Assembly (NCBI GenBank): GCA_928724745.1
Contig: CAKMXJ010000004.1
Location: forward strand, 248,001-312,000
DNA: 64,000 nt
Direction: 5' to 3'
Source: Anthracocystis setariae
Taxonomy: Eukaryota > Basidiomycota > Ustilaginomycetes > Ustilaginales > Ustilaginaceae
Shown here: in pieces, positions 32,463 to 34,127 of the stretch
Layout of the letters: each line of letters opens with the position of its first letter
Position numbering within the stretch: position 1 is the stretch's first letter
Notes under the pieces: model-generated
Databases searched by the model: none
Seen by the model: the letters and a program-made list of their open reading frames with translations, nothing else
What the model was told of the DNA's origin: nothing
Made by a program: the position numbers and the translations under genes

Positions 32463-34127
32463 ATGTCGATGCCACGAGTGTTTCTTGCGCGTCATGGCGA
32501 GACGGAATGGTCGATCTCGGGCCAGCACACGGGTCGATCGGATATCGACCTCACGCCACACGGCGAAGAGGTCATGCGTCAACTCGCCCCTTCCATCATA
32601 GGCATTGGCAATGACAAACTCATCGACCCCACCAAGCTCAACCACATCTTTGTCAGTCCCCGAAAACGATCGCAGAGGACGCTGGAGATCATGCTCGAAC
32701 ATATCCCGCACGAGCAGAGGCTTCAGATTCCGGAGGTCGAGGTGGTCCAGGATTGTAGGGAGTGGGATTACGGCGCGTACGAAGGGTTGAAGACGGACGA
32801 GATCCGAGCAAAGCATTCCGGGTGGGATATTTGGACGCAGGGTACGCCCGATCATCCTGATCGTCCGCACGAGTTGCCCGGAGAGTCGGCTCAGCATATG
32901 AGCGATCGGGTCGACTCGGTCATTCGAAAGATCAGGCAGCTACAGTCGGGTCATGTCGATAAGCGCAATCAGGGAAACGACGTAGGTGCAAAGACATGCG
33001 ACGTTCTACTGGTTTGTCACGGTCATTTCAACCGCGTGTTCGTGGCGCGTTGGTTGGGTTTGCCGTTGACGAATGGAAGATTGTTCGAGATGGATGCTGG
33101 GGCCATGGTGGTTCTGGGGTATGCTCATCATTCGTTTAAGGAGCCTACGATTGCGGGTATGTTTTCGAGCAAGACAGGACCCCGAGGTGAAGCCCAGGGT
33201 TCGCCGGGATCGTTTGGATCGGCGAAGCACGAGGAATCGCAATACCTCGAGCTTGTCTCGCGTGTCATCTCCACCGGAGAATCCCGACCTGATCGAACAG
33301 GTACGGGGACGCTGGCGCTGTTCGCACCGCAACCGTGTCTGCGCTTCGACCTGACCAACGGTACATTGCCGCTGCTCACTACGAAGCGCGTGTTCTTCCG
33401 TGGCGTGTTGGAGGAGCTGCTGTGGTTCGTAGCGGGCAAGACGGATTCCAAACTACTGACGGACAAAGGCGTGCACATCTGGGACGGTAATGGGTCCAAG
33501 GAGTTCCTGGAGTCGCGCGGACTTTCGCACCGCCGGGAGGGTGATTTGGGTCCCGTCTACGGCTTCCAATGGCGTCACTTTGGCGCCGAATACAAAGACT
33601 GCGACACCGACTATACCGGCCAAGGCGTGGACCAGTTGAAAGACGTCATCGACAAGATCAAGAACAACCCCACCGACCGTCGAATCTTGCTCAGCGCCTG
33701 GAACCCTAGAGACCTCCATCTCATGGCGCTCCCGCCTTGTCATATGTTTTGTCAATTCTTCGTTTCGAACCTCGATGCGTATGCCAGGGGTGAGGGCAAG
33801 AAGCAATTGTCGTGTCAGATGTACCAGCGTTCTTGCGATTTGGGTTTGGGCGTACCTTTCAACATCGCCAGCTACGCATTGCTCACCTACATGGTGGCCA
33901 AAGTCACCGACTGTGAGCCAAAACAACTCGTCCTCGCAATGGGCGACGCTCACGTATACAAGGACCACGTCGAACCTCTCAAGCAACAGCTCCAGAGACA
34001 ACCCCTGCCCTTCCCCAAACTCAACCTCACTAGGGATGTAAAGGATATCGACGACTTCAAGTACGATGACTTCGACGTCATCGATTACAAGTGCCACAAG
34101 AAAATCGACATGAAGATGAGCGTTTAA
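32463..34127 (+). CDS. Shb17-like sugar bisphosphatase fused to thymidylate synthase
   Basis: One uninterrupted frame of 554 aa joins two complete enzymes. Residues 1 to about 245 are a histidine-phosphatase (phosphoglycerate-mutase-like) domain with the catalytic RHG (Arg10-His11-Gly12), [10 protein letters not shown], a second catalytic His in VCHGH (His186) and [13 protein letters not shown]. These match the sedoheptulose-1,7-bisphosphatase Shb17 of yeast better than glycolytic mutases. Residues about 257-554 are a full thymidylate synthase: [23 protein letters not shown], catalytic Cys426 in [25 protein letters not shown] and GDAHVYKDH. Thymidylate synthase makes dTMP from dUMP with methylene-tetrahydrofolate; Shb17 feeds ribose-5-phosphate by riboneogenesis. 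Both halves keep their catalytic residues. The linker (about 246-256) is short. No splice site that would separate them was seen. Confidence 0.93.

Follow-up and report, generated by a model that had tools for sequence, protein, structure and literature searches.

A locus of the basidiomycete Anthracocystis setariae raises the question of whether two enzymes without a shared metabolite have been joined for the sake of co-expression or whether their union is a frozen accident. The window that we analysed is a 64,000-nucleotide stretch (positions 248,001 to 312,000 of contig CAKMXJ010000004.1, assembly GCA_928724745.1), which sits on contig C4 of the 36 contigs of this 21.5-Mb assembly. At positions 32463–34127 of the window, a forward-strand frame of 554 residues joins an N-terminal histidine phosphatase domain related to yeast Shb17 to a complete C-terminal thymidylate synthase (TS).

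One frame, two enzymes

A preliminary description of this DNA, made from the letters alone, had proposed a fusion within a single open reading frame (ORF), and the translation bears this out. The sole stop is the terminal one (34125–34127); over the same positions, the other two forward frames contain 12 and 14 stops. The probability that 554 codons are open by chance is 2.6 × 10−7, given the stop-triplet frequency of the window and codons taken as independent. An open junction of 80 codons is by itself not improbable (P = 0.11), and the case for a true fusion therefore rests on conservation elsewhere. The frame is open upstream to 32280, and the alignments with full-length homologues begin at the methionine at 32463 or at 32469, in agreement with the coordinates first proposed.

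Pfam finds two domains in the protein and nothing else: His_Phos_1 (PF00300, branch 1 of the histidine phosphatase superfamily; residues 6–225; E = 8.5 × 10−37, 127.1 bits against a cut-off of 21.7) and Thymidylat_synt (PF00303, ThyA type; residues 260–554; E = 5.4 × 10−109, 363.9 bits against a cut-off of 24.3, profile positions 2–266 of 266). The TS half also matches TIGR03284 (303 versus 108 bits). On the basis of Pfam, alignment and fold searches, residues 1–234 (32463–33164) are assigned to the phosphatase domain and residues 256–554 (33228–34124) to TS; the linker between them, about residues 235–255 (33165–33227), starts within the motif FSSKTGP (33162–33182) and is variable after it.

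Four motifs had been quoted as signs of intact catalytic sites, and all are present: RHG (residues 10–12), VCHGH (184–188), PPCHMFC (424–430) and a 13-residue motif (459–471). We aligned 32 fused proteins and counted 30, after the removal of P0038 and P0046, in which the TS part is broken; kept among the 30 were P0020, which has a gap in TS, P0037, in which a foreign tail replaces the end of TS, and P0009, P0012 and P0025, each with additional sequence inside TS. All 25 of the chosen catalytic or ligand positions, 9 in the phosphatase and 16 in TS, whose roles we take from general knowledge, are unchanged in 30 of 30 proteins. The single frame, the intact active-site residues, their conservation and the one TS match in the genome point to one bifunctional polypeptide with a sugar-bisphosphatase half, which we consider likely; expressed as predicted, it would have both activities.

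The two halves of the protein

Enzymes of the histidine phosphatase superfamily act through a phosphohistidine intermediate. The N-terminal half would be a metal-independent member of the Shb17 group acting through a phospho-His11 intermediate: Arg10, His11, Arg67, Glu100 and His186 are present in all 30 rows, and we take His11 to be the phospho-acceptor and Glu100 the acid, with the role of His186 likewise assumed. Yeast Shb17 (YKR043C) is the best match in both sequence and fold searches, ahead of other branch-1 phosphatases, and is the closest solved relative of the domain; the catalytic residues align, His222 matching yeast His244. Shb17 differs in standing alone and in having an extra stretch (yeast residues 193–225) outside the two aligned pieces. 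A fold search with the whole model returned TS chains only, and the phosphatase was then folded and searched alone. Among the eight histidine-phosphatase matches in the A. setariae genome, the fused domain scores 142 bits against yeast Shb17 and the next best 36 bits. A search of the genome with the full-length protein gave one further, weak match (36% over residues 6–126, E = 1.5 × 10−4), a mutase-like locus that is not close to Shb17. Second by sequence, and nearest outside Shb17, is GPM2 of Mycobacterium tuberculosis (Rv3214; 2a6p), with 36% identity over 192 residues and a fold Z-score tied with that of Shb17. GPM2, a small sugar phosphatase of this superfamily that works without metal, stands alone, unlike the fused domain, and has been shown to act as a fructose-1,6-bisphosphatase (FBPase) (PMC4535450). 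Judged by these sequence relationships, the N-terminal half most likely hydrolyses sedoheptulose-1,7-bisphosphate and probably also acts on fructose-1,6-bisphosphate.

TS is essential and a classic target of antifolates, and in the only copy found in this genome it carries an attached sugar phosphatase. With one TS match in the genome, the frame therefore supplies thymidylate, unless a further TS went undetected; the DHFR gene is a separate locus on contig C5. The TS half would methylate dUMP with Cys426, which we take to be the nucleophile, and is presumably a normal, dimeric enzyme to which the phosphatase would be joined by a flexible linker. In the AlphaFold2 monomer model, both halves are confident (mean pLDDT, the predicted local distance difference test score, 92.0) and the whole less so (predicted template modelling score 0.62), and residues 244–253 fall under a pLDDT of 50.

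Spread and origin of the fusion

We searched about 5.8 billion proteins with the full-length sequence; 7990 candidates were scored, and the best 120 of the 7990 make up the sample of matches listed. Both domains occur in 44 of these 120. The two-domain proteins come from at least 19 named species, comprising 7 Ustilaginomycetes, 6 Exobasidiomycetes and 6 Malassezia; lineages were looked up for 7 of the 19, and the remaining 12 were assigned to classes from general knowledge. The preliminary description had suggested looking for an N-terminal phosphatase on the TS of other Ustilaginomycotina, and that is where it was found, making the fusion a sequence-level marker common to three sampled classes (smuts, Exobasidium relatives and Malassezia). 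The nearest Tremellomycetes and Agaricomycetes proteins among the matches listed are TS alone. A phosphatase-only query, with matches confined to proteins of similar total length to the fusion, gave 34 matches, 24 of which also contain a TS domain, and no phosphatase–TS protein named outside Ustilaginomycotina was among the matches listed. Stand-alone phosphatases were found in Tremellomycetes, Pucciniomycotina, Agaricomycetes and ascomycetes among the matches listed in a search of proteins of up to 416 amino acids, a range in which longer fusions could not appear. No name recognised as Moniliellomycetes or Peribolosporomycetes, two more classes in the NCBI taxonomy, and no Wallemia was among the matches listed, which says nothing on absence from those groups.

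The junction itself is conserved. Of the 17 fused rows that fall outside the Malassezia group, 14 carry FSSKTGP unchanged; the motif occurs in none of the 16 separate phosphatase ends compared, and the joining stretch, from residue 231 to residue 256, measures 12–40 residues across the 30 rows. Separate phosphatases stop, and separate TS proteins start, near the fused junction (16 of each compared); two complete enzymes have therefore been joined end to end.

Phylogenetic trees were constructed with 24 of the 32 fused rows. The TS tree, of 40 rows, places all 24 in one clade with support of 99/95 beside Tremellomycetes, which suggests a single origin. In the phosphatase tree (53 rows), they lie on one side of a branch with a support of only 41, and the root is unsure because the branches to the paralogue outgroup are very long (3.7–4.4). 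The simplest reading of these sequences is that the fusion arose once, before the three sampled classes diverged; this single event probably dates to the ancestor shared by the sampled Ustilaginomycetes, Exobasidiomycetes and Malasseziomycetes, or earlier. In 13 Malassezia and Malassezia-like rows, the phosphatase half is 40–47% identical to that of the window and the TS half 67–71%, and the chosen catalytic residues are retained; the phosphatase half therefore evolves faster than the TS half.

Several proteins depart from the two-domain pattern. In Ceraceosorus bombacis, P0123 (192 amino acids) is phosphatase only and breaks off before the second catalytic histidine, and P0122 loses the TS frame past the junction; for these reasons both look like gene-model faults. 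P0042, P0044, P0045, P0049 and P0050 have a partial phosphatase ahead of TS and look N-terminally truncated. P0069 (312 amino acids, from a 1.5-kb contig) begins immediately ahead of the TS domain and could be either a genuinely unfused TS or a model with a missed exon. P0062, labelled Golovinomyces magnicellulatus and located on a contig of 1887 bases, has a phosphatase 87% identical to that of the window followed by a part without recognisable TS; it is probably a frame-shifted contaminant of this powdery mildew assembly, derived from a smut-like fungus. P0103 (533 amino acids) and P0106 (536 amino acids) each have two TS stretches in Pfam, the first copy in P0103 being without the PPCH motif.

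Comparison with other fusions

The preliminary description named fusions of TS with DHFR in protists and plants as the known precedent. DHFR–TS is indeed the familiar case, but a fungal fusion of TS to Hal3 is also known, in Schizosaccharomyces pombe. In DHFR–TS, as here, TS is C-terminal in a two-enzyme polypeptide, and sequence and fold searches with our protein match its TS half; unlike DHFR–TS, the partner here is a sugar phosphatase, and neither active site makes a product that feeds the other. The Hal3–TS protein (SpHal3) likewise combines a fungal TS with an unrelated N-terminal enzyme, and both parts are described as functional (PMC6695811); it differs in its partner, PPCDC/Hal3 of coenzyme A synthesis, and in belonging to an ascomycete, and the two fusions are presumably independent events. 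Pfam detects neither a DHFR domain nor a PPCDC flavoprotein domain N-terminal to TS in the 554-residue protein. We recognised no report of the phosphatase–TS pairing in the open full-text literature, subscription papers lying outside that search. Public databases contain fused proteins, many of them under no other name than ‘thymidylate synthase’ or ‘hypothetical protein’. A TS that carries another enzyme at its N terminus is thus a known kind of protein; the phosphatase partner and the subphylum-wide spread appear to be undescribed.

Related phosphatase domains are also joined to other sugar-phosphate enzymes, namely RpiB and aldolase. These fusions are bacterial or metagenomic, and their partners adjoin the phosphatase in sugar-phosphate metabolism, whereas TS does not. 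P0246 (551 amino acids, metagenomic) is a single protein in which a class-I aldolase is fused to a histidine phosphatase of this related type. In Verrucomicrobia and one planctomycete, a class-I fructose-bisphosphate aldolase is directly followed by an RpiB–phosphatase fusion in an operon-like pair (L015:3863-6192, L016:4198-6260, L017:3976-5792 and L018:3961-6512), possibly a riboneogenesis module. The scan that located these loci used patterns from the RpiB part only, and 4 of the 394 stretches matched were confirmed. The frame over the match is uninterrupted in three of the four loci and stops inside the phosphatase in L017; the aldolase of L016 spans profile positions 3–228 of 349 only.

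Alternative explanations and the reason for the fusion

Gene models of the fused protein vary, and P0037, P0038, P0046, P0122 and P0123 are truncated or carry extra sequence, a point in favour of an assembly or gene-model artefact. However, the same junction recurs in assemblies of at least 19 named species, on contigs of up to millions of bases. Conservation of the junction across species rules out an artefact or frameshift there; an assembly error at 33150–33260, which the preliminary description had named as a danger, is excluded for practical purposes, and the chance that the fusion is artefactual is negligible. Separate phosphatase and TS proteins could also arise through internal initiation or an unseen splice. 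The junction holds an in-frame ATG (Met233, 33159–33161), a candidate start for a separate TS, and a GTATGT string (33157–33162) that resembles a 5′ splice site; two more in-frame ATGs lie upstream, at 33090 and 33105, from which a TS with a short extension could start. Yet methionine occupies the position of Met233 in only 12 of the 30 rows, the region aligned to residues 228–262 is without methionine in 14 of the 30 fused proteins, the frame contains no stop at which a separate phosphatase could end, and full-length models recur in many species. An independent TS start in the linker was rejected, as the methionine is not conserved, and so was an intron at the GTATGT string, through which homologues continue the frame and for which nothing was found in support. 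Two separate products are accordingly improbable. Within the preferred reading, a single bifunctional protein, the N-terminal domain might be mainly an FBPase or a broad sugar phosphatase instead of a sedoheptulose bisphosphatase. The position of GPM2 as nearest non-Shb17 relative by sequence and its tied fold score favour this, as does the FBPase activity of yeast Shb17 itself (PMC4535450). The best sequence and fold matches are nevertheless to Shb17, and the genome has a classical FBPase gene at another locus (its match spanning profile positions 44–191 of 191). The joining of related phosphatases to RpiB and aldolase also argues for a sedoheptulose bisphosphatase, although aldolase would fit an FBPase too. 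On balance, we regard a mainly FBPase or broad function as rather unlikely.

As the two enzymes share one chain, the phosphatase would be produced in constant proportion to a DNA-synthesis enzyme, and the link between pentose supply and DNA-precursor supply that the preliminary description suggested is possible through co-expression. Joint expression with DNA synthesis is our preferred, if weakly supported, reason for the fusion, and an ACGCGT element upstream of the start codon fits it. The phosphatase and TS reactions have no substrate or product in common, as is established pathway knowledge, so that channelling of the kind proposed for DHFR–TS is unlikely; it was rejected on pathway grounds only. 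That the fusion is a metabolic device kept across the subphylum, tying riboneogenesis, the non-oxidative route of carbon into ribose phosphate, to dTMP synthesis through 1:1 co-expression in S phase, possibly with allosteric contact between the halves, is a tentative and somewhat doubtful proposal. The absence of a common metabolite also suits a neutral origin, in which ancestral neighbours lost a stop, the enzymes work independently, splitting is hard and TS tolerates N-terminal partners. This is quite conceivable: the linker is variable and partly of low confidence in the model, and TS has been joined at its N terminus to unrelated partners, DHFR (PMC4224340) and the Hal3/PPCDC of S. pombe (PMC6695811). 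On the other side, none of the named species in the matches listed shows a clear fission, and FSSKTGP is conserved in most fused proteins outside the Malassezia group and missing from the separate phosphatase ends compared. We judge a frozen accident no less likely than a benefit from co-expression, because TS has gained these other N-terminal partners. Such an accident would bear on why the two enzymes are joined and leaves room for a bifunctional protein, so that the probabilities of these two readings are not mutually exclusive.

Upstream element and neighbouring genes

The sequence ACGCGT, which we take to be the MCB-type element found in S-phase genes of fungi, lies at 32253–32258 (forward strand), 210 bp before the start codon, and is a possible G1/S control site, the evidence being weak and statistical only. 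In the A. setariae genome, 7 of 14 DNA-synthesis genes have it in their upstream 600 bp, compared with 3 of 25 ORFs taken as background (P = 0.014, one-sided), in a small, post hoc test made after the element had been noticed. The 14 genes are six MCM genes, RNR1, RNR2, PCNA, DHFR, three polymerases (one with just 329 bp of upstream sequence) and dUTPase; RNR2 and PCNA, whose starts are unresolved, were scored as misses. Six of eight MCM matches were used (an equal-score twin and a weak one were left out) and three of four polymerases (the weakest was left out). With resolved starts only, the counts are 7 of 12 versus 3 of 25 (P = 0.006). The first gene group, before polymerases and dUTPase were added, gave 4 of 8 resolved starts versus 3 of 25 (P = 0.042); counting RNR2 and PCNA makes it 4 of 10 (P = 0.084). 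Across the window, ACGCGT is not over-represented (7 found versus 15.8 expected).

The upstream neighbour of the fusion is a Sec23/Sec24-type gene (28442–32023). The twin MCM matches, G000:C16:19138-19806 and C36:627857-628525, have equal scores and open-frame lengths on different contigs, and perhaps reflect a duplicated or redundantly assembled region.
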